NCBI GenBank assembly: GCA_018433765.1
Contig: JAHDQO010000014.1
Span: forward strand, 1-55,690
Direction of reading: 5' to 3'
Length of the DNA stretch: 55,690 bases
Source: Tissierellales bacterium
GTDB lineage: Bacteria > Bacillota > Clostridia > Tissierellales > Sedimentibacteraceae
The notes below the pieces were generated by a model. That model ran no database searches and was not told where the DNA came from. It worked only from the letters and a program-made list of their open reading frames with translations. Made by a program: the position numbers and the translations under genes. Within the stretch, counting starts at the first letter, position 1; the number at the start of each line of letters is the position of its first letter. Of the stretch, positions 8,407 to 22,482 are shown piece by piece.

Positions 8407-8447
8407 AAAAAAATCCTACTGACAATTTCTTGTTATTTTCAGTAGGA
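8407..8447 (-). terminator. Expression-platform terminator of the fluoride riboswitch
   Basis: TCCTACTGA (read on the minus strand, 8447-8439) pairs with TCAGTAGGA (8422-8414), and seven T follow. The 5' arm is shared with the 3' end of the aptamer (CTCCTACTG), so ligand binding and termination are mutually exclusive. Confidence 0.88.
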
Positions 8448-8490
8448 GTCATTAGCTTGAATGCATTTAAAGGCGAACTCCATCACCTAT
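8439..8490 (-). promoter_or_regulatory. Fluoride riboswitch (crcB motif) aptamer
   Basis: The minus strand carries GGTGATGGAGTTCGCC, then an AT-rich joining segment, then GCTAATGACTCCTACTG. These are the two conserved blocks of the crcB-motif RNA, in the right order and spacing for the pseudoknotted aptamer. The terminator arm overlaps the last block. It should allow read-through to the antiporter when fluoride is bound. Confidence 0.92.
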
Positions 8491-8509
8491 GTACTTTTAA
8501 TTATCAAAT

Positions 8510-10215: not shown

Positions 10216-12216
10216 TTATTTAAATATGCTGTTCCATTTTTCTTTTAACCAGTTTATGAAGCCTCCTTCTTTTTCTTCTTTGACTGGTTCTTCTTTCTGT
10301 ACTTCCTCTAATTCTATGCTGTCAATTTTCATAACAAATTTAACTGTACCTTCCATGCTTTCATCTATTCCTGAGTAGTTATTGTAGTTACTAGAAAGCA
10401 CTGCAAGCTGATCTTTGATTTCAAAAACTTCATTATACTCATCTGTTTTCTCAATAACTTTGTCATGAAGTTCTATTACACCATCTTTATCAAATTCATC
10501 GTAACCGTCATTTAATGTCTTTGTTCCATCTTTTAAATCACTTATACCGTCATTGACTAAATTTGAAGCATCTGCTATACCATCAACACCGTCTTTTAAA
10601 GATGAAGTTCCTTGACTTAAAGCTTCTAATCCATCTGATAATTCGTGTGCTCCATCTATTAGAACATCTGCTCCATCTACAAATAAACCTACATTATCGT
10701 CTAATTCATTAATACCATTTTTCAAGTCATTAGCACCATTTGATAATTCTTTCATTCCATCTTCACAAGTATCTAGTCCTGAATAAAGCTTGCCTGCTCC
10801 TGTTGATAACTGTTGTATACCTCCATTCAACAGCATAGTAAAACCGCCTATTTTTTCATCAAGCGCTACTTTTACCCCTTCACCTGCTGCTGCTCCTGCT
10901 GCTTTTCCTGCTGCTGCTCCTGCCTGTTCTAAATAAGGTTTCTGTTCATCTGTAATTATTCCCTGTGCTATTACACCTTTTATTGCCTTATCTACTGCAT
11001 CTTGCACTGCAGATTCTACTGCTGTTTTTATAGGATCTGTGTCTATTGAACTCTGTCCTATTTGCTGCTGAAATTCATCAATTCCATGCACTAAATCTCT
11101 TGAACCTGACTTAAGTTGTGAAACTCCAAAATATGCATCTTTAGTTCCATCGTATAAGTCTTCTGATCCTTCTAGCAATTTTTCTGTTCCGTCTTTTAAT
11201 TCAACTAACTTATCAGCAAATTCATCTGTTCCATCTGTAAGCTCTTTTGTTCCATTTAGAAGTCTGCCGTTTACATTTTCATTTAATAACTCTGCTGCAT
11301 CTTTTAAAGTATATATTCCTCCTTTAAAATCGCCAAAATTATCTAGAAGTTTTTTTGTTCCGTCATCTAAATCTGTTATACCTGATTTTACATCATCGCT
11401 TGCATCTGTTAAGTCATTTACTCCGTCTATAGTTTCATCAATGATACCGCTAGTTTTCTTTATTTCATCTAGTATTGACGAATCCGATTCTGCTGTTATC
11501 AATATATCTCCCATTTCAAAATCTTCAACATCAGCTTCTAATTCAAGCATTTCAGGCATATCAAAGATATCATCAAAATCTTCATCATCTATATCTAAAC
11601 TTTCTTTTAACCCCGGTGACGCTATATAAGTTATTATTGTGTTGTTTCCATCATTTAAAACTTTTCCCGTGTTGACTTCTAAATTTCTACATTTACTTGT
11701 AGGCATATTTATTACTGTTATTACAGCAAATGGTGCATACAGTTTTTTTATCTTACCGTTAATAGTTACATCATGAAATTCATTATTTATCACTTTAACA
11801 GTCATCTTAAGTTTACCTGATTTACCTGCTAATAAATGTGGTTCTATTTTTTTACCATCTAAACTGTATGTTAATTCGAAGCTTAACGGTAATTCTTTGT
11901 CTGTTTTTCCTTGATAATATATTTCTCCTTTATCTGTTTTCCATGTTAATTTTTCATCTTTTTTAACAGGTACTTCATTACCTTTAACATTTTTAATATC
12001 AGTAAGTATTGATTTGTCTTGTATTTCTACATCTTTTTCATTTGAATGAACCCAATCACTTACTGTAATGTCTTTAATCTTTCCTTCACGTGTTAGGTTG
12101 ACATATACTGTTTCATCCTTAATAACATTATCTTGTGCAAATGCAAAGCTAGTAAACACTATGACAAAAACCATTGATAAACTTAGACATCGAGTAAATA
12201 TTCTTTTTTTAGCCAT
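10216..12216 (-). CDS. Secreted Leu-x-x-Gly heptad-repeat protein, partner of MMPL exporter
   Basis: 666 residues with a signal peptide (to about residue 28, FTSFAFAQ). A beta-rich N-terminal region (30-240) is followed by a long helical repeat region (about 265-600) built from x-L-x-x-G heptads such as LKDGTEKLLEGSEDLYDG. An Ala/Gly-rich interruption lies near 425-450 and the C-terminus is basic. Repeats of this kind are found in YhgE/Pip-type proteins, but the terminal membrane anchors of that family are not evident here. The ribosome binding site (GGAAAGGAG) lies inside the last codons of the MMPL gene and the start is 2 bp after its stop, so the two are tightly coupled. A periplasm-like or wall-spanning accessory role for the exporter is inference. 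Confidence 0.8.
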   Translation of the reverse strand: MAKKRIFTRCLSLSMVFVIVFTSFAFAQDNVIKDETVYVNLTREGKIKDITVSDWVHSNEKDVEIQDKSILTDIKNVKGNEVPVKKDEKLTWKTDKGEIYYQGKTDKELPLSFELTYSLDGKKIEPHLLAGKSGKLKMTVKVINNEFHDVTINGKIKKLYAPFAVITVINMPTSKCRNLEVNTGKVLNDGNNTIITYIASPGLKESLDIDDEDFDDIFDMPEMLELEADVEDFEMGDILITAESDSSILDEIKKTSGIIDETIDGVNDLTDASDDVKSGITDLDDGTKKLLDNFGDFKGGIYTLKDAAELLNENVNGRLLNGTKELTDGTDEFADKLVELKDGTEKLLEGSEDLYDGTKDAYFGVSQLKSGSRDLVHGIDEFQQQIGQSSIDTDPIKTAVESAVQDAVDKAIKGVIAQGIITDEQKPYLEQAGAAAGKAAGAAAGEGVKVALDEKIGGFTMLLNGGIQQLSTGAGKLYSGLDTCEDGMKELSNGANDLKNGINELDDNVGLFVDGADVLIDGAHELSDGLEALSQGTSSLKDGVDGIADASNLVNDGISDLKDGTKTLNDGYDEFDKDGVIELHDKVIEKTDEYNEVFEIKDQLAVLSSNYNNYSGIDESMEGTVKFVMKIDSIELEEVQKEEPVKEEKEGGFINWLKEKWNSIFK

Positions 12217-12218
12217 AA

Positions 12219-14321
12219 TTATCTATCTCCTTTCCTTGAGTTTGCAATTTTTAATTTAGGCTTATTCTTCCAATTCCTAGTAGTAACTGAAACAAACTTT
12301 TCTGACACTATTAATAGTGCCGGAAGTATTGTTATTATTACTATCATACTTATAACAGCTCCTCTAGAAATCATCATAGCGAGGCAGCTAATTAAATCCA
12401 TCTTTGCAACAACTGCAACTCCTATAGTAGCAGCAAAGAATGTTAATCCACTAGTTATTATAGATTTTATTGATCCTTGAAGTGCTATCTTCATTGCTTC
12501 ATGTTTTTCATAACCATTTCTTATTTCTTCTCTAAATCTTGTAGATAATAAGATGGCATAATCAACAGTTGCACCTAATTGTATACATCCTATTACTATT
12601 GAAGCAATAAAAGGTATTGTAGTTCCCATATAATACGGCAATGCCATATTAATGAATATAGCCAGTTCTATAGAAGCTACTAAAAATATTGGCAGTGATA
12701 TTGAGAAAAACATCAGCATAATTATTACAAATATTGCAATTATAGAAACAATACTAACATTTTTAAAATCTATATCTGCAATTTGTACTAAGTCTTTTGT
12801 TAGTGCACCTTCACCTGTTATATAACCATTAGGATCGTAGGATTTTACTATTTCATTGATTTCATCTAGCTGATTATTCTGTTCCTCGGTTGCAGCTGCA
12901 TAGTTAGAATTTGCTAATATTAAGTTATATCCATCTTTTTTAAATATTTCTTTTATTTCTTCTGGAATAAAGCTTTCTGGTATTGCTGGACCAATATATT
13001 TGTCATATCCTGCTATGTTGTGTATACCGTTAAGTTTTTCAATTTTCTCTATCATTTCTTTCATCTCATATGAAGGTACATCGTCTTTAACAATTATCAT
13101 ATGAGTAGTAGTCATATTAAATTCTTCTTTTAATTTATCAAGAGCTTCTATAGACTGCATATCTTTTGGAAGTGATTCAGATAAATTATAATAAACTTGT
13201 GTATTGCTCTGTCCGTATAAAGCTGGTAGAAACAATAGTATAAATACTGCAAAAAATACTTTATTATGCTTAATAATAAAATTTGTAGTTTTATTAAAAT
13301 TGGGCAGTATTGTAGGATGTTTAAATCTATGAATCAACTTATCAAATACTAACATCAAAGCTGGCAAAATAGTAACAGTAGATATTACTCCTAGTACTAC
13401 TCCTTTAGCCATTACAAAACCAATGTCTTTACCTAACCCTAACTTCATAACCCCTAAAGCTAAGAAACCTGCTATTGTTGTAAGTGAACTTCCACTGATT
13501 GATGTCATGGTCTTTGATATTGCTTCTGCCATTGCTTCATTTCTATTTTTATTTACTTGTAGTTCCTCTTCATATCGATGTAATAAGAATATGGAATAAT
13601 CCATGGTAACACCAAGTTGAAGAACTGCTGCTAACGCTTTTGTTAAGTGAGATATTTCACCTAAAAAAATATTTGTACCTAAATTATATAGTATGGCAAT
13701 ACCTATTGCTGCTAAAAAAATTATAGGTATTAGTGTTGATGTTAATGTCAAAGATAACACTATAACAGCTAATATCACTGCCCATAATATATAAATAGGT
13801 GTCTCTTTATCAGATAATTCAATAGTATCTTTTATTAGTGTAGAAAGCCCACTTAAGTAACACTGCTTATTCATGATCTTTCTTATTTCACTAATAGCAC
13901 CTTGTGTTTCATCTGCAGCAGGGGCATGCTGAAATTTAACCATGAGTAATGTAAAATCTTTCTGATAAAATACATCTCTTACTTTATCAGGTAAAATTTC
14001 CTTTGGTATACTAATATCTAGTAAACTATTTATCCATAGGACATCATCTACACCTTCAACTTCAGCTATTTTATCTTTAATACTCAGAACGTCTTTATTT
14101 TCCATGTTTTCTATAACAAGCATCCCTGTTCCTGCATTATGAAATACATCGTCAAGTATTTCCTGACCCTTCATTGAATCTAGGTCTTCTGGCAAATAAG
14201 TCAAAATATCATAATTAATCCTAGTCATTGCAATGCCGTATAGAGATGGAAATATTAATAATATAGCAATAATTAATATCAATATTCTTCGTTTTGCTAT
14301 AAACATTCCAAATCTTTTCAT
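12219..14321 (-). CDS. MMPL-type RND transporter
   Basis: 700 residues with the two-fold RND/MMPL layout. One membrane helix at about 10-30 precedes an extracytoplasmic domain (35-175). A bundle of five helices (about 175-330) follows. The arrangement then repeats: helix near 350, domain 370-515, bundle 520-690. The matching sequences AVLQLGVTMDYSIFLLHRYEEE and IQLGATVDYAILLSTRFREE hold the Asp residue expected in the proton relay of each half. Such pumps export lipids or hydrophobic drugs. GGAAGGA precedes the start. It is first in an operon with the Leu-x-x-Gly protein and is controlled by a promoter carrying a TetR-type operator. Confidence 0.9.
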   Translation of the reverse strand: MKRFGMFIAKRRILILIIAILLIFPSLYGIAMTRINYDILTYLPEDLDSMKGQEILDDVFHNAGTGMLVIENMENKDVLSIKDKIAEVEGVDDVLWINSLLDISIPKEILPDKVRDVFYQKDFTLLMVKFQHAPAADETQGAISEIRKIMNKQCYLSGLSTLIKDTIELSDKETPIYILWAVILAVIVLSLTLTSTLIPIIFLAAIGIAILYNLGTNIFLGEISHLTKALAAVLQLGVTMDYSIFLLHRYEEELQVNKNRNEAMAEAISKTMTSISGSSLTTIAGFLALGVMKLGLGKDIGFVMAKGVVLGVISTVTILPALMLVFDKLIHRFKHPTILPNFNKTTNFIIKHNKVFFAVFILLFLPALYGQSNTQVYYNLSESLPKDMQSIEALDKLKEEFNMTTTHMIIVKDDVPSYEMKEMIEKIEKLNGIHNIAGYDKYIGPAIPESFIPEEIKEIFKKDGYNLILANSNYAAATEEQNNQLDEINEIVKSYDPNGYITGEGALTKDLVQIADIDFKNVSIVSIIAIFVIIMLMFFSISLPIFLVASIELAIFINMALPYYMGTTIPFIASIVIGCIQLGATVDYAILLSTRFREEIRNGYEKHEAMKIALQGSIKSIITSGLTFFAATIGVAVVAKMDLISCLAMMISRGAVISMIVIITILPALLIVSEKFVSVTTRNWKNKPKLKIANSRKGDR

Positions 14322-14373
14322 ATATGTCCTTCCTTTCTAAATTAAATACTTAAAAATATTACACTGTTTTTAA

Positions 14374-14429
14374 ACTGACCAGTCAGTATAATTTTTAATT
14401 ATTATAGACCTATAGTAAAAATATTGCAA
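14374..14429 (-). promoter_or_regulatory. Promoter and TetR-type operator of the MMPL operon
   Basis: TTGCAA (14429-14424), a 17-bp spacer and TATAAT (14406-14401) form a consensus promoter. The palindrome ACTGACCAGTCAGT (14374-14387) lies 13 bp downstream of the -10, over the likely start site, where a bound repressor would block initiation. The same palindrome type occurs at the tetR promoter. Confidence 0.85.
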
Positions 14430-14463
14430 CACTTTTTTTAAATTTTTATATTAAAATTGCATT

Positions 14464-14504
14464 AAAAAAACAGTATTTAACTTACAATACCGTTAAATAC
14501 TGTT
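14464..14504 (-). terminator. Terminator after the tetR gene
   Basis: A 13-bp perfect stem AACAGTATTTAAC (14469-14481) with its complement (14492-14504) is followed on the minus strand by seven T. It separates tetR from the MMPL operon, so the two have independent transcripts. Confidence 0.82.
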
Positions 14505-14532
14505 GTATACTGGTTTTTAGCTTACGACAAAT

Positions 14533-15111
14533 TTAGATTTGTTTTTTAAGTCCTATACCATTTAAGATATAATTTATAATTTTTTCTGCATCTTCAATAG
14601 AGTTGATTTCCTTATCATTTAGCAGTTCAAATACAGTTACAGATGTCATAATGCCAAATACTGCATATGCTATTAAATGTGTATCATCAACATTTATAAC
14701 TTTTTCGTCCATAGCTTCTTTAACATATTTTTCAATATAACTTATATAATCTTTAACTACATCTCTTAATTCAGTTTGTCTTATTTCAATTCCCCACAAC
14801 TGACTCATTATAACTTTGAAAAAATCTTTATTATCATAAATAATTTTAAGCTGCATGTAACATAATTTTTCAAACTTATCTATAATATTTTTTTCATTTG
14901 CTACTGCTTCTTCAATATCATTTTTAACTAGATTCATTCCTTCTTTAATAATATAATTGAACAAATCTTCTTTGTTATTAAAATGATAGTACAAGGTACC
15001 TTTTGCGACTCCTGCTTTAACTGCAATACCATCCATAGTTGCACCAAGATAGCCTTTTTCAGAGATCTCTTTTATTGCAGCTTCCATAATTAATTCTTTA
15101 GTATTTTTCAT
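14533..15111 (-). CDS. TetR/AcrR-family repressor
   Basis: 192 residues. The N-terminal helix-turn-helix (about 8-50) has the family sequence GATMDGIAVKAGVAKGTLYYHFNNKEDLF. The C-terminal two thirds is the helical ligand-binding and dimer domain. Its own promoter and that of the MMPL operon carry the same palindrome, so it most likely represses both and is released by a hydrophobic substrate of the pump. The ligand cannot be read from sequence. Confidence 0.9.
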   Translation of the reverse strand: MKNTKELIMEAAIKEISEKGYLGATMDGIAVKAGVAKGTLYYHFNNKEDLFNYIIKEGMNLVKNDIEEAVANEKNIIDKFEKLCYMQLKIIYDNKDFFKVIMSQLWGIEIRQTELRDVVKDYISYIEKYVKEAMDEKVINVDDTHLIAYAVFGIMTSVTVFELLNDKEINSIEDAEKIINYILNGIGLKKQI

Positions 15112-15128
15112 TTTACACCCTCTTAAAA

Positions 15129-15177
15129 TTGACCGGTCAGTACAATTAATTATAGACTTTTAGAAAATTTTATGCAA
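15129..15177 (-). promoter_or_regulatory. Promoter and operator of tetR
   Basis: TTGCAT (15177-15172), 17 bp and TATAAT (15154-15149) precede the palindrome TTGACCGGTCAGTA (15129-15142, core TGACCGGTCA). The layout is nearly identical to that at the MMPL promoter, including the flanking TCTATAAT. This supports autoregulation and shared control. Confidence 0.85.
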
Positions 15178-15233
15178 CATGTTTTTACAATTTTCAATTT
15201 TATTTAAACTCTTAAACTTTTGTTGCTAATAAT

Positions 15234-15274
15234 AAAAAAGCAGCACTCGACGTTTCAACAATCGTCAAATGCTG
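15234..15274 (-). terminator. Terminator of the tRNA-Lys(UUU) transcript
   Basis: On the minus strand CAGCA and GACG arms pair with TGCTG and CGTC across a small internal loop, and six T follow. It begins 11 bp after the encoded CCA end of the tRNA. Confidence 0.7.
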
Positions 15275-15284
15275 TTTTATAAAG

Positions 15285-15360
15285 TGGTGACCCATCGGCG
15301 ACTCGAACGCCGGACACCCTGATTAAAAGTCAGATGCTCTACCAACTGAGCTAATGGGTC
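15285..15360 (-). tRNA. tRNA-Lys: tRNA-Lys (anticodon UUU)
   Basis: A 76-nt cloverleaf with encoded CCA. The acceptor strands GACCCAT/ATGGGTC pair perfectly and the discriminator is A. The D-arm is GCTCAGTTGGTAGAGC. The anticodon loop is CTTTTAA with anticodon TTT, closed by CTGA/TCAG. The T-arm holds GTTCGAGTC. The gene is read after a leader of about 400 nt containing three tRNA-5'-like modules. Confidence 0.95.
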
Positions 15361-15361
15361 A

Positions 15362-15718
15362 GAATATTCAATTTACATACTTTTTTAAAGTTTCATTAGC
15401 ATCTATAGTTAACCACTAAGTGATTCACACGAAATGTAAAATTTCGGTTCTCTACTTATACCAACTGAGCTAATGGGTCATATTATTAATCTTATATGTT
15501 CTATTCAAATTTTGTTAGTTCTTATAGCTTACCACTAAGCGATGTACACGAAATCATAGATTTCGGTCCCCTGCTTATACCAACTGAGCTAATGGGTCAT
15601 ATTATTAATTTTATATGTTCTATTCAAATTTTGCTAGTTATTATAGCTTACCACTAAGCGATGTACACGAAATCATAGATTTCGGTCCCCTGCTTATACC
15701 AACTGAGCTAATGGGTCA
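15362..15718 (-). repeat. Three tandem 119-bp modules, each with a copy of the tRNA-Lys 5' end
   Basis: Units 15362-15480, 15481-15599 and 15600-15718 have an exact 119-bp period, which also matches the step from the tRNA 5' end. Each carries the first 21 nt of the adjacent tRNA (acceptor strand plus D-arm to TTGGTA; minus strand at 15479-15459, 15598-15578 and 15717-15697). The copy continues with TAAGC instead of the tRNA sequence, a GAAATC/GATTTC hairpin, GCTTA and GTGG. The anticodon arm, T-arm and 3' acceptor strand are all missing. The two outer units are almost identical; the unit next to the tRNA has diverged. All lie between promoter and tRNA, so they are transcribed with it. Function is unknown. 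Confidence 0.9.
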
Positions 15719-15763
15719 TGTTATTTTATTTGTATATATTACATGTTTTTTGCGTGCTCATAT

Positions 15764-15792
15764 ATATTACAATAAACGATGTAAGTTGTCAA
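15764..15792 (-). promoter_or_regulatory. Promoter of the tRNA-Lys(UUU) transcript
   Basis: TTGACA (15792-15787), 17 bp and TAATAT (15769-15764) stand upstream of all three modules. I see no comparably good promoter between the modules and the tRNA. The start would be near 15757, which makes the leader about 400 nt. Confidence 0.75.
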
Positions 15793-15839
15793 TATTTTTT
15801 TATAAAAATTTTTGCTTTTTATTTTTTTTATTGATATGT

Positions 15840-15884
15840 TGACATGTCATGTGCGTTGACATATTATGTTTAATATGCTACAAT
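15840..15884 (+). promoter_or_regulatory. Promoter of the aminotransferase gene with adjacent palindrome
   Basis: TTGACA (15856-15861), 17 bp and TACAAT (15879-15884) form a strong promoter. Just upstream lies the palindrome TGACATGTCA (15840-15849), a possible regulator site. Confidence 0.75.
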
Positions 15885-15915
15885 TTAAGAAAATAAGTTA
15901 GTTGAGGTGATTTTT

Positions 15916-17151
15916 ATGAGTATAAATATGACTGCTAAACATGCACGTTGGCCTAAGGCAAATGATGTAATTTTTGGTCTTGCTGGACAAGCTGCTGAGG
16001 CAATAAAGAAATATGGAAAAGAAAACGTTATCAACTCTACTATAGGAGCTTTAATTGATGATAAAGGTGATCTTATAGCAATGAAAACAGTTTATGAACA
16101 GTTTAAAGCTTTACCTAATGCTGAAATAGCTGCGTATTCTGCAATAGCAGGTCAGCCTGATTTTTTAGAAGCTGTACAAACAGCTTGTTTTAGGGATCAC
16201 AGACCAGATGCTTACACAAGAGCTGTAGCTACTCCCGGAGGTACAGGCTCTATAAAACATGCAGTATGGAATTATACAAATCCCGGTGATGAAGTTTTAA
16301 CATCAGATTGGTATTGGTCTCCTTATAATACTATAACTGAAGAAGTAGATAGAAAAATAACTAATTATAAGCTATTTAACGATAAGAATGAATTTAATAT
16401 AGAGTCTTTTAAAGAGAAATTTAATGAATTAATAAAAAAACAAAAAAGACTTTTAACTATTATAAATACTCCTGCACATAATCCTACTGGATACAGTCTT
16501 TCAGATGAAGATTGGAAACAAGTTCTTGATATTATGAAGGAATCTGCAAAAGACAAAGACAATAGGATAATTGTTTTTGTTGACAGCGCTTATATAGATT
16601 TTGCTGGTGAAGGTACTGAAAGGAGAAAATTTTTTGAGCAATTCTCTAATCTTCCGGAAAATATATTAATAATAGTTGGCTTTAGTATGTCTAAAGGCTA
16701 CACTATGTACGGTTTAAGAAGCGGTGCAGCTATTTGTATATCTTCAAAAGAAGAAATTGCTGAAGAATTTTTCTATGCATGTATTCATTCAGGAAGAGCT
16801 AACTGGTCTAATGGTAACAGAGGTGCTATGGCTACCATGACAACTATAGCTAATGACGAAAAACTTCTTAAGGCTTATGAGGATGAAAAGCTCATGTATA
16901 AAACCATGCTTCAAAACAGAGCAAAGGCTTTTGTAGAAGCTGCTGATAAAGTTGGGCTTGAGTTACTTCCTTATAGAGATGGCTTCTTTATAAGCATACC
17001 TTGTGATAATCCTATGGAAGCATGCCAAAAGCTTGTAGATCAAAATGTATTTGTTATACCATTGAAAATGGGACTTAGATTTGCAGTATGTGCTGTTTCA
17101 GAAGAAAAGTGCAAAAAAGCTCCTGCTTTGATTAAAGAAGCTTTGAAATAG
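15916..17151 (+). CDS. Class I/II PLP-dependent aminotransferase
   Basis: 411 residues of the fold-type I aminotransferase family. Visible landmarks are the glycine-rich phosphate-binding loop (ATPGGTGSIKHAV near 105-117), the Asn of NTPAHNPTG, the Asp of VFVDSAYIDF that contacts the pyridine nitrogen, and the Schiff-base Lys in FSMSKGYTMYGLRSGA. The ATG at 15916 has GAGGTGA upstream; the GTG three codons earlier lies within that ribosome binding site. The enzyme should move an amino group between an amino acid and a 2-oxo acid. The overall look is closest to aspartate/aromatic-type enzymes, but the substrate is not certain. It is a single-gene unit with its own promoter and terminator. Confidence 0.85.
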   Translation: MSINMTAKHARWPKANDVIFGLAGQAAEAIKKYGKENVINSTIGALIDDKGDLIAMKTVYEQFKALPNAEIAAYSAIAGQPDFLEAVQTACFRDHRPDAYTRAVATPGGTGSIKHAVWNYTNPGDEVLTSDWYWSPYNTITEEVDRKITNYKLFNDKNEFNIESFKEKFNELIKKQKRLLTIINTPAHNPTGYSLSDEDWKQVLDIMKESAKDKDNRIIVFVDSAYIDFAGEGTERRKFFEQFSNLPENILIIVGFSMSKGYTMYGLRSGAAICISSKEEIAEEFFYACIHSGRANWSNGNRGAMATMTTIANDEKLLKAYEDEKLMYKTMLQNRAKAFVEAADKVGLELLPYRDGFFISIPCDNPMEACQKLVDQNVFVIPLKMGLRFAVCAVSEEKCKKAPALIKEALK

Positions 17152-17183
17152 AATAATATATGAAAATAATAAATAAAATATTC

Positions 17184-17216
17184 AATGGGAGTTTTTTACA
17201 AAACTCCCATTTCTAA
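17184..17216 (+). terminator. Terminator of the aminotransferase gene
   Basis: A 12-bp perfect stem AATGGGAGTTTT/AAAACTCCCATT with a 4-nt loop lies 33 bp after the stop codon. Confidence 0.8.
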
Positions 17217-17220
17217 CTTA

Positions 17221-17355
17221 TTAATACAATTTAATAAGTTTACTTTTTAAATAATCTAATTTTATATCTAGCTTCTTTTCAATTAAGTCTACTCTATCAT
17301 ATTTATTGTCTAAATTGAATTTATGCGAATAGTATGAAGAGAACATATCAAACAT
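17221..17355 (-). CDS. Small protein of 44 residues, unknown
   Basis: ATG at 17355 is preceded by AAGGGGG at a good distance and opens a 44-codon frame (MFDMFSSYYSHKF... ending KLIKLY). The protein is rich in Lys, Asp, Leu and Tyr and looks like a single amphipathic helix without a membrane segment. I do not recognise a family. The strong ribosome binding site in a 460-bp gap is the main support. A second purine-rich AGGGAGGGGG lies about 70 bp upstream without an ATG, GTG or TTG at the right distance, so a further short peptide gene there is doubtful. Confidence 0.5.
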   Translation of the reverse strand: MFDMFSSYYSHKFNLDNKYDRVDLIEKKLDIKLDYLKSKLIKLY

Positions 17356-17568
17356 ATTATTAACCCCCTTGTAGTTTAATTTTTTGCATAGCTAATACTT
17401 CTTCTTTAGTTAGTTTCCCCCTCCCTAAACAATTTTTCCCTTAATCATTATAGTCAAAACATATAGATATTACCACAACTTTTTATAGGTATTTTTAAAT
17501 TCAATAAATTGTTAATTAAAAAGGCTTTTTGCTTATTTTTATTTCCTTATTTAGCAATATATGTAATT

Positions 17569-17606
17569 AAAATAAGAGATTTCAGTTTCCTAAAATCTCT
17601 TATTTT
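17569..17606. terminator. Bidirectional terminator downstream of the CPBP-like gene
   Basis: AATAAGAGATTT (17571-17582) pairs with AAATCTCTTATT (17593-17604). Runs of T on the plus side and A/T-rich sequence on the minus side allow it to act on either strand. It directly follows the stop of the minus-strand membrane gene. Confidence 0.75.
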
Positions 17607-17614
17607 TTCTATAT

Positions 17615-18283
17615 TTATTTCATATAATCTTTAATTATAAATCTCTTTCTAATCCAAAAAGTACAAACTCTTTGTAATCCATGTATTATCATTGTAACTA
17701 TAATATTACCAGTATTCACATATATAATACCTATCCATATGGAAAACCAAAATGAAGCTGTAATCTCATATATTATTTTTGATGTAATTATTTTCTTGCC
17801 ACCTATAACTTCTTGAACAATTATAAATTGAACCCAAATTAAAGCATTTAAAAATATGCTTAATGTTATTTGTCCATAAATAACATCATTAACTCCTAAC
17901 ACAACAAATAAGTTTTGGACTAACAACCTCTGAGGTATTTCCATTGAAGCACCGTTTAAAAAATTCTCTATCTTAAAAACGTCACTCTCGTTATACCTTT
18001 TTCCTATATACGCAATAAAGGAAGTAGGTATTATACAAATTAATATTAATAGAATATTTTTTAAATTCCACAAGTTATTTATTTCTAAGAAAAAGATATT
18101 TGATGGATATATTTTATAAATTATAATAAAGAAAATTAAACTCCAAAACTGAAATAAATAAGAATTTTTAAAATTTTTCTTATAAATTCTTTTAATTATT
18201 AAAGTAGAAAAAATTACTAGACTATACAATAAACAAATTACAAGAGAAACTATGATATATTTTAAAACTATACTTAAAATCAT
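17615..18283 (-). CDS. Divergent CPBP-like integral membrane protein
   Basis: 222 residues with about six to seven hydrophobic helices. The segment ASMEIPQRLLVQNLF looks like a weakened form of the first CPBP motif (EExxxR; only one Glu remains, with R four positions on). VTMIIHGLQRV resembles the last His motif. CPBP proteins include Rce1-type intramembrane proteases and bacteriocin self-immunity proteins. With one of the paired Glu missing, catalytic activity is doubtful. The protein is basic at its C-terminus. It has no clear operon partner. Confidence 0.6.
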   Translation of the reverse strand: MILSIVLKYIIVSLVICLLYSLVIFSTLIIKRIYKKNFKNSYLFQFWSLIFFIIIYKIYPSNIFFLEINNLWNLKNILLILICIIPTSFIAYIGKRYNESDVFKIENFLNGASMEIPQRLLVQNLFVVLGVNDVIYGQITLSIFLNALIWVQFIIVQEVIGGKKIITSKIIYEITASFWFSIWIGIIYVNTGNIIVTMIIHGLQRVCTFWIRKRFIIKDYMK

Positions 18284-18400
18284 ACAATTCTACCCTTCTT
18301 TTATATATACTTAAAAGTATTTATACCTAATTTTAGTTTTGCTGTTTATTTTTGTCAAGTTACATTAAATTAAAGATAGACTATTCAACATTTAAAAATA

Positions 18401-18435
18401 AAAACCTTTCAAATCATTAATATTTGAAAGGTTTT
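18401..18435 (-). terminator. Terminator of the tRNA-Lys(CUU) transcript
   Basis: A 14-bp stem (18401-18414 with 18422-18435) and a 7-nt loop begin 4 bp after the tRNA CCA end. T-rich sequence follows on the minus strand. Confidence 0.85.
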
Positions 18436-18439
18436 TCTA

Positions 18440-18515
18440 TGGTGACCCATCAGGGGCTCGAACCCTGGACACCCTGATTAAGAGTCAGGTGCTCTGCCAA
18501 CTGAGCTAATGAGTC
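18440..18515 (-). tRNA. tRNA-Lys: tRNA-Lys (anticodon CUU)
   Basis: A 76-nt cloverleaf with encoded CCA. Acceptor strands GACTCAT/ATGGGTC include one T-G pair. The D-arm is GCTCAGTTGGCAGAGC. The anticodon is CTT in CTGACTCTTAATCAG. The T-arm holds GGTTCGAGCC. It is preceded by one tRNA-5'-like module in its leader. Confidence 0.95.
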
Positions 18516-18635
18516 GCTTTATTTAATTTTTATGTGTTATTTAAATTTTATTCTTTATCTATAGCGTACCACTAAGCGATATACACGAAATCATAGATTT
18601 CGGTCTCCTGCTTATACCAACTGAGCTAATGAGTC
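18516..18635 (-). repeat. Single 120-bp tRNA-5'-like module upstream of tRNA-Lys(CUU)
   Basis: The module is homologous over its full length to the three units at 15362-15718. Its tRNA-like part (18635-18615) begins GACTCAT, matching the acceptor strand of the local tRNA rather than the GACCCAT of the other locus, but it has the TTGGTA D-loop of the other locus. It then continues TAAGC, GAAATC-TAT-GATTTC, GCTTA and GTGG. It lies within the leader of the tRNA transcript. Confidence 0.88.
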
Positions 18636-18658
18636 GCTTCATTTTTGCCGCCTTTTAT

Positions 18659-18687
18659 ATACTACATCTTTAGGTTAATATTGTCAA
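18659..18687 (-). promoter_or_regulatory. Promoter of the tRNA-Lys(CUU) transcript
   Basis: TTGACA (18687-18682), 17 bp and TAGTAT (18664-18659) stand upstream of the module. The start would be near 18652, giving a leader of about 137 nt. Confidence 0.75.
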
Positions 18688-18707
18688 TATGTAAAGATAT
18701 CATTTTA

Positions 18708-18737
18708 GAAAGGATTTTGATAAATCAAAATCCTTTC
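18708..18737 (-). terminator. Hairpin after dctM, probable operon end
   Basis: A 13-bp perfect stem GAAAGGATTTTGA/TCAAAATCCTTTC with a 4-nt loop follows the dctM stop. There is no good T-run on the minus strand, so it may stabilise the 3' end rather than terminate on its own. Confidence 0.6.
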
Positions 18738-18762
18738 CTTAAAGCTAAATAATAATTAGATA

Positions 18763-20043
18763 TCAGTTAAACATATTTGGTATTGCCATTGTTATGGCAG
18801 GTATATACATTACCATGAGTACAATAGCTACCATAGCTATCATAAAAGGCAGTACTGCTTTTGCGGCCTTTTGTATTGGCACTTCTCCTATGCCGCATGT
18901 TATAAATAACACTGCTCCAACAGGAGGCGTATATAGCCCTATCGCAAGCGACATTATAATAAATATTCCAAACTGAACTGAGTCCATTCCTAATTGATTA
19001 GCTATAGGCAGGAATATTGGAACAAATATTATAAGTGCTGGCGTCAAGTCCATTACAGTTCCTACTATTAAAAATATTAAAAACATCATTAATATAAGTA
19101 AATGTTCATTAGTTGTGATTGAAAACATAAAGTCTGCAATCACTTGAGGAACATGTGCATAAGCTAACAAGAAACCAAATATAGAAGATGCACCTATTAA
19201 AAACAAAACTGCCGCAGTTGTTAATGCACTCTTATACAGCATTTTAGGTATGTCTTTGAATTTAACAGACTTATACAAAAAAACTGATATTATAAATGAA
19301 TAAAATGCAGCAATTACGGCTGACTCTGTCGGTGTAAATATTCCTCCAAGTATACCTCCAAGAATAATTACAAAAGTAAAAAGTGGAATTATACCTTCTA
19401 TTATCGACCTGACAATTTCGTTAAATGGTCTCCCTTTCTCAGCTTTGTAACCTCTTTTTACAGAAATAATATATGCAACTACCATCAAAGATAATCCAAC
19501 TAATATTCCCGGTATTACCCCTGCCAAAAACATACCTGAAATAGATACCGATCCTGCTACCATTGCATACACTATCATTGCATTGCTTGGAGGTATTATT
19601 ATGCCTATTGTTGCACTTGTAGCAGTTACTGCAACAGAAAAATCTTTCTGATATCCCGCCTTATTCATTGTAGGTATTAATATAGTACCTATTGATGATA
19701 CATCCGCTGTAGCTGAACCAGAAACTCCACCAAACAGCATACTCGCAAGAATATTAACGTGAGCTAGTCCTCCTCTTATTCTGCCAACAAAAATGTTTGC
19801 AACATTTATTAACTTTTGTGAAATATTTCCCGCTGACATAAATTCTCCTGCTAAAACAAAGAAAGGTATACACATAAGCGGAAAAGAATCCACTCCATTA
19901 AATATTTTCTGTACTATTAACGTAAGAGGTAAAGGTGAATCAAGTGATAAAATAGCACATACAGATGACAGCACTATAGCATACGCTACTGGCATCTCAA
20001 GTAATATGAAAATAACTAACGAAACAAACAAAACAACTATCAT
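18763..20043 (-). CDS. dctM: TRAP transporter large permease (DctM type)
   Basis: 426 residues and about 12 hydrophobic helices with typical DctM sequences (PFFVLAGEFMSAGNISQKLI; FGGVSGSATADVSSIGTILIP; TPTESAVIAAFYSF). It forms the sodium-coupled transport channel of a TRAP system with DctQ and the lipoprotein DctP. Its ATG overlaps the dctQ stop as ATGA, and the GGAGG lies inside dctQ. Gene order iolC-iolJ-iolB-dctP-dctQ-dctM on one strand suggests that the imported solute feeds the IolB/IolC/IolJ steps. Confidence 0.92.
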   Translation of the reverse strand: MIVVLFVSLVIFILLEMPVAYAIVLSSVCAILSLDSPLPLTLIVQKIFNGVDSFPLMCIPFFVLAGEFMSAGNISQKLINVANIFVGRIRGGLAHVNILASMLFGGVSGSATADVSSIGTILIPTMNKAGYQKDFSVAVTATSATIGIIIPPSNAMIVYAMVAGSVSISGMFLAGVIPGILVGLSLMVVAYIISVKRGYKAEKGRPFNEIVRSIIEGIIPLFTFVIILGGILGGIFTPTESAVIAAFYSFIISVFLYKSVKFKDIPKMLYKSALTTAAVLFLIGASSIFGFLLAYAHVPQVIADFMFSITTNEHLLILMMFLIFLIVGTVMDLTPALIIFVPIFLPIANQLGMDSVQFGIFIIMSLAIGLYTPPVGAVLFITCGIGEVPIQKAAKAVLPFMIAMVAIVLMVMYIPAITMAIPNMFN

Positions 20044-20522
20044 CTTTTACCTCCTATAACTTTTTTGCTAATTGTATAATAAATTTTTTCTATGGAATTT
20101 AATATCATAATTACTCCACTTATAGGAATTATCGCATATACTGGTGTCATAGTAAAAGACATTGATGATGCTGTTTTTAGTTTTCCAGCAAGCATAAACT
20201 TATAACCATATACAGTTATTATTAAACCTGTGATAAAACACAAAATGTAACTTGTACTCCAAATAATTTTTTTTATGTTTGGATTTTCAATACTTTCTGA
20301 TATTAAAGTCAACCCTAAATGTGAGCCTGTTTTTATTCCCATAGCTCCAGCCAAAAAAGCCAGCCATATCATCAAATACTTAGCTAATTCTTCAGACCAA
20401 GTTGAAGGATCGTCTAGAACAAAACGTGTAAAGACTTGCCATAATACTATTAAACTCATTGCAACCAAAACTATAATTATTAAATATTCCATAATTTTAT
20501 CAACTAAACTTTTAATCTTCAA
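20040..20522 (-). CDS. dctQ: TRAP transporter small permease (DctQ type)
   Basis: About 160 residues with four membrane helices and the DctQ signature PSTWSEELAKYLMIWLAFLAGA. I place the start at TTG 20522 because AGGAG lies 7 bases upstream. The longer frame from 20564 would begin inside a strong hairpin and has no ribosome binding site. It helps assemble the DctM channel. It overlaps dctM by 4 bp. Confidence 0.85.
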   Translation of the reverse strand: MKIKSLVDKIMEYLIIIVLVAMSLIVLWQVFTRFVLDDPSTWSEELAKYLMIWLAFLAGAMGIKTGSHLGLTLISESIENPNIKKIIWSTSYILCFITGLIITVYGYKFMLAGKLKTASSMSFTMTPVYAIIPISGVIMILNSIEKIYYTISKKVIGGKR

Positions 20523-20557
20523 TGTCTTACTCCTAAAATAAAATTTAAATAAATTTA

Positions 20558-20597
20558 ATATCAATCAAATAGAATTTGATTCCTATTTGATTGATAT
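20558..20597 (-). terminator. Intercistronic hairpin between dctP and dctQ
   Basis: A 15-bp perfect stem (20558-20572 with 20583-20597) with a 10-nt loop lies 8 bp after the dctP stop. No U-run follows. Hairpins in this place usually protect or partly insulate the upstream message, so that the binding protein is made in excess over its permeases. Confidence 0.6.
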
Positions 20598-20605
20598 ACA
20601 TTATA

Positions 20606-21634
20606 TTATTTAGTATTTATTATCTTATTTACTAAATCCGAACCAACATCTTCATTACATTCCTCATATATAGGTTGTAATTTTTCTATTAATTTAGCTT
20701 TTTCATCATCAGGAAATTCTTTAACGCTTGCACCATCTTCTAATGCTTTTTGTAAATATCCTTCATCAACACTTTTAAAATGTTCTATTTCCCAAGTTTG
20801 AGAAGCATCTGCAGCTTTTTGTACAAATTCCTGCTGCTCTGGATTTAATTTATTCCAAGCTGACATACTCATGATTAACACACTAGGCATTCTATAGTGA
20901 GCAGTTTTTGTAATATAAGGTGCAACCTCATACTGCTTTGATGTATATATAGTTGAATAGTTATTTTCTCCTGCTTCAACAACTCCTTGCTGTAATGATG
21001 TATAAAGTTCTCCAAAGTTCATTGGTGTTGGAGATGCTCCCATAGCTTCAAATGATTTTTGTATAATAGAAGATGTCATAGTCCTAATTTTAACGCCTTG
21101 AAAATCTTCTGCTTTTTCTATGAATTTACTGTTATGATATACGTTTCTAGAACCATCTTCATAGAAAGTAAGTAATTTAAAACCTTTTTCTTCGAATTTT
21201 TGTTTGAAGAAATCTCCTACTTCTCCATTTAAAACATTCCAATAATGCTCATTATCTCTAAATAAGAAAGGTAAATTAAATACTTCTAGTTCTTTTATAA
21301 ATGATGCCATATTAGCTGTGGCAACACGAGTCATTTCAATTGTACCAAGATTTAAGCCTTCAATACTTGCAGGCTCACTACCTAATTGTGCGTCAAAGTA
21401 TACATCAACTTTTACAGAGCCATTTGAGTTTTTACTTACTTCTTCTGAGAAATAAGTCAATCCTTCACTTACTGGATTGGTAGCTGGTGTAGATTGAGAT
21501 AGTTTTAAGACTACTTCTTCAGCTTGCTTTGGTTCTTCTGGATTTGTCTGTGGTTTTGCATCACCTTTTCCAGAACATGCAGTTACAGAAAATATCATTG
21601 TTAAACATAGAATAAAAATTAAACTTTTTTTCAT
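20606..21634 (-). CDS. dctP: TRAP transporter solute-binding lipoprotein (DctP type)
   Basis: 342 residues with a lipoprotein signal peptide (lipobox SVTAC, Cys20), followed by the DctP fold. Family stretches include FNLPFLFRDNEHYWNVL, GVKIRTMTSSIIQKSFEAMGASPTPM and the ligand-stacking region YTSLQQGVVEAGENNYSTIY. The Arg in GVKIRTM is where the carboxylate of acidic ligands normally binds, so an acidic solute is expected. AGGAGG precedes the start. Together with iolB, iolC and iolJ this suggests a uronate- or ketogluconate-like ligand, which is inference. Confidence 0.9.
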   Translation of the reverse strand: MKKSLIFILCLTMIFSVTACSGKGDAKPQTNPEEPKQAEEVVLKLSQSTPATNPVSEGLTYFSEEVSKNSNGSVKVDVYFDAQLGSEPASIEGLNLGTIEMTRVATANMASFIKELEVFNLPFLFRDNEHYWNVLNGEVGDFFKQKFEEKGFKLLTFYEDGSRNVYHNSKFIEKAEDFQGVKIRTMTSSIIQKSFEAMGASPTPMNFGELYTSLQQGVVEAGENNYSTIYTSKQYEVAPYITKTAHYRMPSVLIMSMSAWNKLNPEQQEFVQKAADASQTWEIEHFKSVDEGYLQKALEDGASVKEFPDDEKAKLIEKLQPIYEECNEDVGSDLVNKIINTK

Positions 21635-21690
21635 TTTTAAATTCCTCCTAAGAATGCTTTTATTTTGTTTAAACTTAAATGATAACTTTT

Positions 21691-22482
21691 TTATATTTCA
21701 GGCCAATACTTTGCACCCGGTTTCTCAACCCATAAATGTTCTTCTTCAAATGTAGGTTTTATATAAGGATTTCCTTTTAAATGCCTTATAATCCATAAAA
21801 AGTACATAGCATATCCCGGAGCAGCAACTTGAGGATGTACTAAGTCAGGATCTATTGTCACCGTATCATTATGTTCTAAAAGAACACCATCATCTCCTAG
21901 CTTTAATAAACCAAATCCATTTTCAGGATAAAATTTATAATAGTAAATTTCAGGTTGATTGTGTGAATGTGATGGGAAACCTGCCCATTTTCCTGGATAA
22001 TGCACATCTTCACCAAACATAAAGTTTGATTCTGGAGCAAGAGATTTATCCATTAATGTTTTAACAATTCTAGTACCGGTTCCATTCATTGAACCTTCTC
22101 CTCTTGTTTCGATTACTGAATTATTCTTGTCTCTTACTATTGAATTAAATCTTATATTGTTTTTAGTTCTAAAAACTGCAACTTCACTATCTTCACAAAT
22201 ACCTGTAACTTTAACTTCTACATCATAAGGTACATTAAGTGCTATAAAATCATTGTCTAGAAAACTTTCTCGTTTGAAAATTTTAGTGTTGTTTTCCCAC
22301 TTTATTTCTATTCCACCATAGAGAAGCAAAAAAACCTTTTCCAATTCGTTATTATCTTGATACTTAGTTCCATTAGTTAGTTTAAGTATGCCATAATCCA
22401 TCATCATTTCACTACATCTACCATTAATTTCAGTAATGCTGTTATATCCAATTTTAAATGGTTCTTTTTGTTGTATTTTCAT
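21691..22482 (-). CDS. iolB: 5-deoxy-glucuronate isomerase
   Basis: 263 residues of the IolB cupin family. The enzyme converts 5-deoxy-D-glucuronate to 2-deoxy-5-keto-D-gluconate in inositol breakdown. Conserved segments are GEGSMNGTGTRIV, the metal-binding FPSHSHNQPEIYYYKF and HPQVAAPGYAMYFLWIIRH. The length is close to the usual 270. It lies downstream of iolJ (38 bp gap) and upstream of the TRAP genes (56 bp gap), all on one strand. The preceding pathway steps (IolG, IolE, IolD) are not encoded nearby. Confidence 0.9.
   Translation of the reverse strand: MKIQQKEPFKIGYNSITEINGRCSEMMMDYGILKLTNGTKYQDNNELEKVFLLLYGGIEIKWENNTKIFKRESFLDNDFIALNVPYDVEVKVTGICEDSEVAVFRTKNNIRFNSIVRDKNNSVIETRGEGSMNGTGTRIVKTLMDKSLAPESNFMFGEDVHYPGKWAGFPSHSHNQPEIYYYKFYPENGFGLLKLGDDGVLLEHNDTVTIDPDLVHPQVAAPGYAMYFLWIIRHLKGNPYIKPTFEEEHLWVEKPGAKYWPEI

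Follow-up and report, generated by a model that had tools for sequence, protein, structure and literature searches.

The analysed window comprises 55,690 nucleotides of contig JAHDQO010000014.1 from the Tissierellales bacterium assembly GCA_018433765.1. Its minus strand carries a tRNA-Lys(UUU) gene at 15285-15360 (ARAGORN; Rfam RF00005 at 15288-15360, 67.7 bits) preceded by three modules of exactly 119 bp each. Every module starts with a perfect 21-nt copy of the tRNA 5' end, followed by a 42-nt hairpin (the core) and a 56-nt linker. In the outermost module 1 these parts occupy 15697-15717, 15655-15696 and 15599-15654, respectively; in module 2 they are found at 15578-15598, 15536-15577 and 15480-15535, and in module 3, which adjoins the tRNA, at 15459-15479, 15417-15458 and 15361-15416 (all on the minus strand). 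The cores are recognized by the covariance model R1, built from 31 hairpins, with E values of 1.2e-15 for modules 1 and 2 and 3.4e-15 for module 3, the last value being not independent of the model as this core is among the sequences used to build it. An earlier note, made from the sequence alone, had described three tandem 119-bp modules with copies of the tRNA 5' end, and the exact 119-nt spacing of the four occurrences of GACCCATTAGCTCAGTTGGTA (the tRNA start and the three upstream copies) bears this out; the array has the highest Tandem Repeats Finder score (540) among the 9 rows obtained for the window. All three upstream copies leave the tRNA sequence at one common base, as the note had also described, and then enter the same hairpin. 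The shared structured sequence had been given as 60 nt; the hairpin is indeed shared, but it is 42 nt long and the next 56 nt have diverged in module 3. Modules 1 and 2 are nearly identical to each other, linkers included; in module 3 both hairpin and linker have diverged and the 21-nt copy is unchanged. Hairpin and linker together make 98 bp, which leaves no room for a gene, and no integrase was recognized by eye among the open reading frames of window positions 11000-22000, in agreement with the note.

A single module of like build, absent from the earlier note, precedes the second tRNA-Lys of the window (anticodon CUU, 18440-18515, minus strand; ARAGORN and Rfam). It spans 18516-18635 (minus strand) and consists of a 57-nt linker (18516-18572), a core hairpin (18573-18614; R1, E 2.6e-15) and a copy of the tRNA 5' end (18615-18635, 20/21 identical). 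The copy follows its own tRNA, reading GACTC and not GACCC, and the sole difference between the two is GGTA versus GGCA. The same genome contains modules with tRNA-Cys copies at two contig ends, at least five in total: three at the end of contig C20 (L003) and two at the start of C25 (L004), where one is cut by the contig start and tRNA-Cys then follows. Apparently, the array of tRNA-Cys modules broke the assembly between C20 and C25. Elsewhere in the window a fluoride riboswitch is found at 8436-8496 (minus strand; Rfam RF01734, 49.3 bits).

Upstream of all modules of tRNA-Lys(UUU) lies a promoter-like site, TTGACA-17-TAATAT, on the minus strand at 15792-15764 (10/12 in a consensus scan). It had been considered the sole good promoter. 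The site is present, but an internal one, TGTACA-16-TATAAT at 15667-15640 in the first module, scores equally (10/12), and the total of such sites on both strands of the region (6 versus a shuffle mean of 4.2, sd 2.3) represents no excess. As the modules lie between promoter and tRNA, they are probably contained in the transcribed leader. The scan detected no terminator-like site in the window.

The constant part of the module is an imperfect hairpin of 42-50 nt with the ends TAAGY...RCTTA; some cores of A. dehalogenans reach ~60 nt. Searching related genomes for the core and building a covariance model, as the earlier note had proposed, recovered the hairpin with compensatory changes in its stem. 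Among the 31 hairpins, 7 of the 17 pairs exhibit double changes, and cells changed on both sides number 47, versus 13.4 in shuffles and 0 to 5 in slid-register controls. TAAGC/GCTTA swaps with TAAGT/ACTTA, and the pair adjoining the AAAT/ATTT helix occurs in all four Watson-Crick forms, while two positions within the stem are mostly non-standard (23/31 and 28/31 sequences). Judged by this covariation the hairpin is a real structured element, and the pattern fits RNA and single-stranded DNA alike. Rfam contains no family matching the module: in the module region of the window only a U6 match with E 4.9 was obtained, T-box RF00230 gave no match at the gathering score in the window, and in 20 loci lacking a tRNA-type module the matches belonged to other RNAs, none to the hairpin. 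In A. dehalogenans loci L189, L215 and L217 the hairpin loop is much enlarged, apparently with a second palindrome inside.

The module is clearly conserved beyond the strain, for which the earlier note had asked. A DNA search of 61 genomes combined with tRNA predictions found the hairpin within tRNA operons in many families of the order. With stricter filters in both scans, R1 detected the hairpin at E <= 1e-7 in 58 genomes among 150 from the order, and at E <= 0.001 in only 3 among 199 from across the phylum, the source genome being one of the three. Among named genomes, 34 stretches carry the pattern of a D-loop end followed by the hairpin; they include the genera Anaerosalibacter (Tissierellales), Acetoanaerobium (Peptostreptococcales) and Acetobacterium (Eubacteriales), the orders having been looked up. 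Viral contigs gave 0 exact matches to the hairpin pattern. None of the titles found by literature searches describes the hairpin module, which is weak evidence of absence; apparently, it has not been described before.

The position of the hairpin relative to tRNA genes is regular. In eight named genomes, chosen for already having matches, 39 of the 40 hairpins lie in or before tRNA genes; the 39 include two in broken tRNA-Phe genes, three whose tRNA is cut by a contig end, and L216, placed by its coordinates 62 nt before tRNA-Lys. The exception lies 324 nt before tRNA-Phe, upstream of another module, and has no copy. In some other genomes the hairpin is also dispersed away from tRNA genes. Of 131 distinct hairpins in the loci surveyed, 88 are followed by a tRNA gene at a distance of at most 400 nt (Lys 26, Gly 19, Thr 17, Phe 13, Cys 11, Arg 1 and Asn 1), with tRNA-Leu(CAA) added as a further module-bearing type by the later search of named genomes. 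The hairpin of the last module ends 51-65 nt before the tRNA gene; the search for copy and linker lengths was bounded at 45-71 nt, and unbounded distances (up to 400 nt) give the same 51-65. Tandem arrays comprise 2-8 modules; in G041, a genome assembled as one contig, two operons carry 8 and 4 modules, respectively, in front of tRNA-Thr (L028 and L029).

The copy at the module start usually covers the first 20-25 letters of the same tRNA. Compared with the next copy or with the tRNA start in 88 modules, 69 copies are identical, 11 are one base off and 8 differ by two to five bases. This set, to which array and contig-end modules of known tRNA type were added, is separate from the 88 hairpins with a downstream tRNA, and the equal size is coincidental. 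Five cores were skipped from its statistics (the third core of L003 at a contig end, and L113, L124, L125 and L132 with degenerate copies), and two more, L131 and the first core of L012, were excluded for having too little sequence upstream of the core. Where tRNAs differ in the D-loop (CAGTTGG, CAGTCGG or CAGGCGG), the copies show the variant of their own tRNA. A minority are degenerate (L113, L124, L132, L125, L082, L094, L201 and the first Lys copy of L107): the Phe copy is lengthened and altered in L124 and L132, the Gly copy is shortened in L125, and the last 8 nt of the Gly copy remain in L113. Six of these degenerate copies (L113, L124, L132, L125, L201 and the first Lys copy of L107) are accompanied by a hairpin with little or no damage, so that the copy would not seem to be essential.

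The junction between copy and hairpin is strict. In the 88 modules the copy ends with GGTA (65), GGCA (21), GCTA (1) or GATA (1), and in 64 of the 66 modules scored GA is the next dinucleotide of the intact tRNA. The two remaining cases, L013 and L114, are Thr modules where the lengths of copy and tRNA differ by one base; the tRNA reads GGTA^GAGC (^ marks the junction). In Lys, Thr, Phe, Gly, Arg and Asn the junction coincides with the D-loop end. In tRNA-Cys it is GGCA^GAGG, past the D-stem, and in tRNA-Leu(CAA) it is GGCA^GACG. Because Cys and Leu(CAA) use other structural positions, the junction is set by the sequence GRYA^GA and not by one position in the tRNA. Among tRNAs having GRYA^GA[AG] in nt 11-30, 45 of 132 bear a module, and among those without the motif 0 of 159 (Fisher p 2.6e-18, which overstates the association since the tRNAs are not independent, although the complete lack of modules in the second group is remarkable). 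This table covers loci L001-L104, not chosen by junction pattern, with tRNAs less than 120 nt from the stretch start left out; in the subset L048-L104, obtained by covariance-model searches, the values are 32/77 versus 0/81. The tRNA-Leu(CAA) junction GGCA^GAC, found after the table was made, fits GRYA^GA and not the narrower GRYA^GA[AG]. A tandem pair of tRNA-Phe pseudogenes in A. fimetarium (L202 and L207, minus strand, hairpins at 1249/1501 and 1501/1753) consists of an altered 5' part and an intact 3' half separated by the hairpin, with the junction variant AGCA^GAGG; they represent an insertion site without a repaired tRNA.

Closely related species differ in the presence of the module. 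In G264 the tRNA-Lys heading a Lys-Glu-Val-Asp operon is preceded by one module located between two copies of TTAATTAAGACCCATTAGCTCAGTTGGTA, i.e. between direct repeats of 29 bp. The syntenic locus of G057, from the same genus, has a single TTAATTAAGACCCATTAGCTCAGTTGGTA copy (one base different) and no insert, and a tRNA-Lys of a third member of the genus, G044, is also without a module. (A different hairpin-like leader, TTAGTGCTTAACTTCTAAACTAATAGCACTAA, is seen upstream of the G044 gene, L154.) In a second genus, G285 has a module at the Lys site whereas G275 and G280 lack one there, and the Phe site shows the reverse. The hairpin and linker of the G264 module are similar to the ones before tRNA-Thr in G057, with a linker identity of 0.72. 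More generally, linkers of different tRNAs have a mean identity of 0.63 in 69 pairs taken within a genome (maximum 0.81) and of 0.65 in 113 pairs taken within a genus (maximum 0.77), as compared to 0.60 between genera and a shuffled baseline of 0.58. Sharing of inserts among different tRNAs of a genus therefore appears clear in the best pairs and modest on average. The direction of the change, gain rather than loss, would follow mainly from this sharing, since loss through the direct repeats would look like an empty site.

The duplicated segment can extend upstream of the tRNA start. Where the preceding tRNA is close, identity of the spacer upstream of the copy is at best 14/15, 11/13, 9/10 and 10/12 and at worst 1/6 and 2/11; it stops at the CCA of the preceding tRNA, whose last 8 nt are identical at the chance level (77/312, 39 modules). 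Over all spacers, long ones included, 391 of 1062 positions are identical. In longer spacers some outer modules match their linker over 22-34 nt; these lengths are unsafe as duplication lengths because remnants of lost modules are seen in longer spacers (L120 and L133). The CCA boundary would be consistent with a duplicated block derived from processed pre-tRNA.

We consider that the module is somewhat more probably than otherwise (about 55%) a small structured element that inserted at tRNA genes, duplicating their 5' end, and was then retained for a function in the leader. Insertion at GRYA^GA would duplicate the stretch that begins just upstream of the tRNA and ends at the insertion point, and this duplication would regenerate a functional tRNA downstream of the insert. 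Unequal exchange between the direct repeats may then give the tandem arrays, and modules, once present, would be kept by selection. In the leader, copy, hairpin and linker could fold as one long hairpin, and the role would most likely be an effect on maturation or amount of that tRNA. Site-specific insertion with duplication is favored because of the strict junction, the polymorphic presence, the long direct repeats and the sharing between tRNAs; the suggestion of the earlier note that this is a tiny element inserting at tRNA 5' ends gains support from the same filled and empty sites, junction motif and shared inserts. Retention for a leader function is proposed because copy and hairpin are conserved, the spacing is held, and modules persist at the same locus in Acetobacterium and Alkalibaculum. 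The two components are compatible. Several observations stand against insertion, however. The 29-bp direct repeats could equally have removed the module from G057; a fixed linker length together with a variable duplicated spacer is unlike a fixed-size insert with target duplication; the strong conservation of most copies is unexpected for a mere insertion scar; the search for a mobilizing gene, which covered the Y1 transposases, gave none linked to the cores; and in some genomes the hairpin is also dispersed away from tRNAs without a copy.

The constraint on the module was estimated from 26 within-genus comparisons at the same tRNA: 26 of 544 positions differ in the copy, 46 of 1116 in the hairpin and 272 of 1544 in the linker, where the pairs overlap and are not independent, and a single degenerate copy (L107) accounts for 20 of the 26 differences counted in the copy. 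Divergence of copy and hairpin is thus about four times below that of the linker. The linker sequence is near the baseline between genera (identity 0.60-0.62 versus 0.58 when shuffled), while its length varies little (51-65 nt; sd 1.5-2.6 per tRNA type). Given the lower divergence of copy and hairpin and the held linker length, the modules seem retained for function, probably in the leader. These facts are also what would be expected if the module were an ancient cis-regulatory leader RNA, with copy, hairpin and linker acting as a switch on tRNA folding, processing or transcription and with the patchy distribution reflecting losses via the direct repeats. We regard this as a tentative possibility. 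It would be in line with copies following the D-loop variants of their own tRNA and with the Gly-Arg-His-Gln-[modules]-Lys locus, where modules are found in several Acetobacterium genomes and in Alkalibaculum.

Pairing between linker and copy bears on the same question. In 47 dereplicated modules the linker pairs best with the copy of its own type: the residual is -1.03 kcal for the own copy, -0.65 for modules of the same type and +0.18 for other types (permutation p 0.0004; p 0.0002 with the hairpin forced in a constrained fold), and an earlier test on 84 modules, not dereplicated, gave a Wilcoxon p of 0.004. On the other hand, the count of copy-linker pairs by itself is not significant (p 0.057), just 6 of the 47 modules beat shuffles of their own linker at 5%, and the reversed-copy control has a mean z of -0.48 versus -0.66 for the actual copies. 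Conserved copies partly complementary to their own linker fit some RNA role. The decoy function put forward in the earlier note, with 5' strands pairing to the tRNA 3' acceptor strand and modulating folding or RNase P processing, is a hypothesis that goes beyond these data. For a leader RNA it is also unfavorable that the four modules of the window fold with z values of -1.65, 0.39, 0.03 and -0.42 relative to shuffles, module 3 (z -1.65; 14/200 as good) being the only one that folds somewhat better, that degenerate copies exist, and that a terminator-like site is absent in the window. A leader RNA leaves unexplained the strict GRYA^GA junction and its differing positions in tRNA-Cys and tRNA-Leu. 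A cloverleaf formed from copy and linker was considered separately and rejected, as no acceptor pairing is seen by eye at the linker ends; pairing, where present, makes a rod around the hairpin.

An unlikely variant is an RNA-mediated mini-element, a bacterial counterpart of SINEs, whose RNA would copy itself into tRNA genes and then serve as a leader switch. Its target may be chosen partly by pairing of the linker with the tRNA 5' sequence, and the duplicated block could be a piece of processed pre-tRNA reaching from the preceding CCA end to the cut at GRYA^GA. This reading is suggested by the CCA boundary, the type-specific linker pairing, the fixed junction and the varied duplication lengths; among the longest of these, some could be traces of modules since lost.

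Dispersed hairpins raise the question whether the core is an ordinary REP- or MITE-type repeat moved by a Y1 transposase (RAYT or IS200/IS605), the tRNA copies being incidental. At least 42-43 hairpins were counted among the matches scored in G012, G043 and G260. In the source genome 13 of the 22 matches at E < 0.01 lie outside tRNA modules, and the 10 of these examined for context have no tRNA within 400 nt. Dispersed hairpins often adjoin other palindromic repeats or terminator-like hairpins, and all 10 core-rich genomes searched have Y1_Tnp genes. Yet no real core was found near 30 inspected Y1_Tnp loci of the 49 matches in these genomes (flanks of ~1.5 kb each where the contig allows), with one terminator-like match at the loosest setting in L167. 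In addition, G035, G042, G052, G057, G261 and G264 have cores and no Y1_Tnp match, nearly all hairpins of the eight named genomes lie at tRNAs, and the Y1 family is not known to make long target duplications. Y1 transposases and RAYTs were hence rejected as mobilizers for want of linkage and for poor co-occurrence, a search that covered the Y1 family, and the explanation as a whole seems very improbable.

The surroundings of the dispersed hairpins are varied. In L033, L043, L044, L090, L091, L098 and L104 the hairpin is part of intergenic composite repeats without tRNA copies; adjacent palindromes include CTCCTAGGAAC... and TCCTGAGCG...AGCGAAGGATC, and in L043, L044 and L080 the hairpin is right behind terminator-like hairpins. 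In L075 (237-284, minus strand), close to the end of a contig, it overlaps a group-II-D1D4-6 intron match at the 3' end of the latter, as is seen on two contigs of that genome; an origin of the hairpin in group II introns would rest on this one case.

Tandem duplication of whole tRNA genes, in which the hairpin split the upstream copy and the linker is what is left of that copy's 3' part, hardly deserves credence: the linker does equal the tRNA remainder plus a few bases in every common type (linker minus remainder is +2 to +7 for Cys, 0 to +6 for Gly, -1 to +6 for Thr, +1 to +9 for Lys and +5 to +10 for Phe), the upstream identity spans the intergenic spacer up to the CCA of the preceding tRNA, and hairpin-broken tRNA-Phe genes exist in A. 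fimetarium, but linker identity to the own remainder is 0.503 versus 0.492 to others (best 0.62, 86 modules), GTTCRA occurs in 0 of 88 linkers, even in G264 with copy and spacer unchanged, and it is difficult to see why the 3' part alone should have decayed.

Despite the strong constraint on tRNA genes, one small hairpin repeatedly occupies one kind of site within them, in eight tRNA types and three bacterial orders, and in nearly every case next to a duplicate of that tRNA's 5' end. As a mobile element, it would belong to an unfamiliar class that has a novel target and spares the host gene in a novel manner; as a leader RNA, it would be a tRNA-linked control device sited on the tRNA genes themselves. 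Cultured strains of Acetobacterium and Eubacterium callanderi make either reading testable.

Among known systems, T-box and other structured leader RNAs share with the module a covarying hairpin in a leader and a connection to tRNA. T-box leaders precede synthetase or amino-acid genes, whereas the module precedes tRNA genes, has no Rfam match and is accompanied by no terminator in the window. REP/RAYT repeats and IS200-IS605 MITEs are similar in being short imperfect palindromes, multi-copy in some genomes and located beside other palindromes. The present hairpin differs from them in having no linked Y1 transposase, in being bound to tRNAs in many genomes and in its long target repeats. Moreover, REPs are defined by a GTAG or GGAG tetranucleotide outside the stem, whereas GYAG of the core falls within the stem, overlapping TAAGY/RCTTA, and is paired in all 31 sequences. 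Integrative elements and prophages that target tRNA genes resemble the module in their target, in the direct repeats of a tRNA part flanking the insert (as with the repeats in G264 and the identical copies in most modules) and in that the tRNA stays functional. Such elements mostly duplicate 3' ends, are kilobases long and carry an integrase, in contrast to the module, which duplicates the 5' end and whose hairpin and linker comprise 93-113 bp without a gene. The eukaryotic retrotransposons Ty3 and TRE5, which insert near tRNA genes, show a similar preference for these genes, an upstream location and direct target repeats; the module differs from them by its lack of coding capacity, its bacterial host and a junction placed inside the tRNA.
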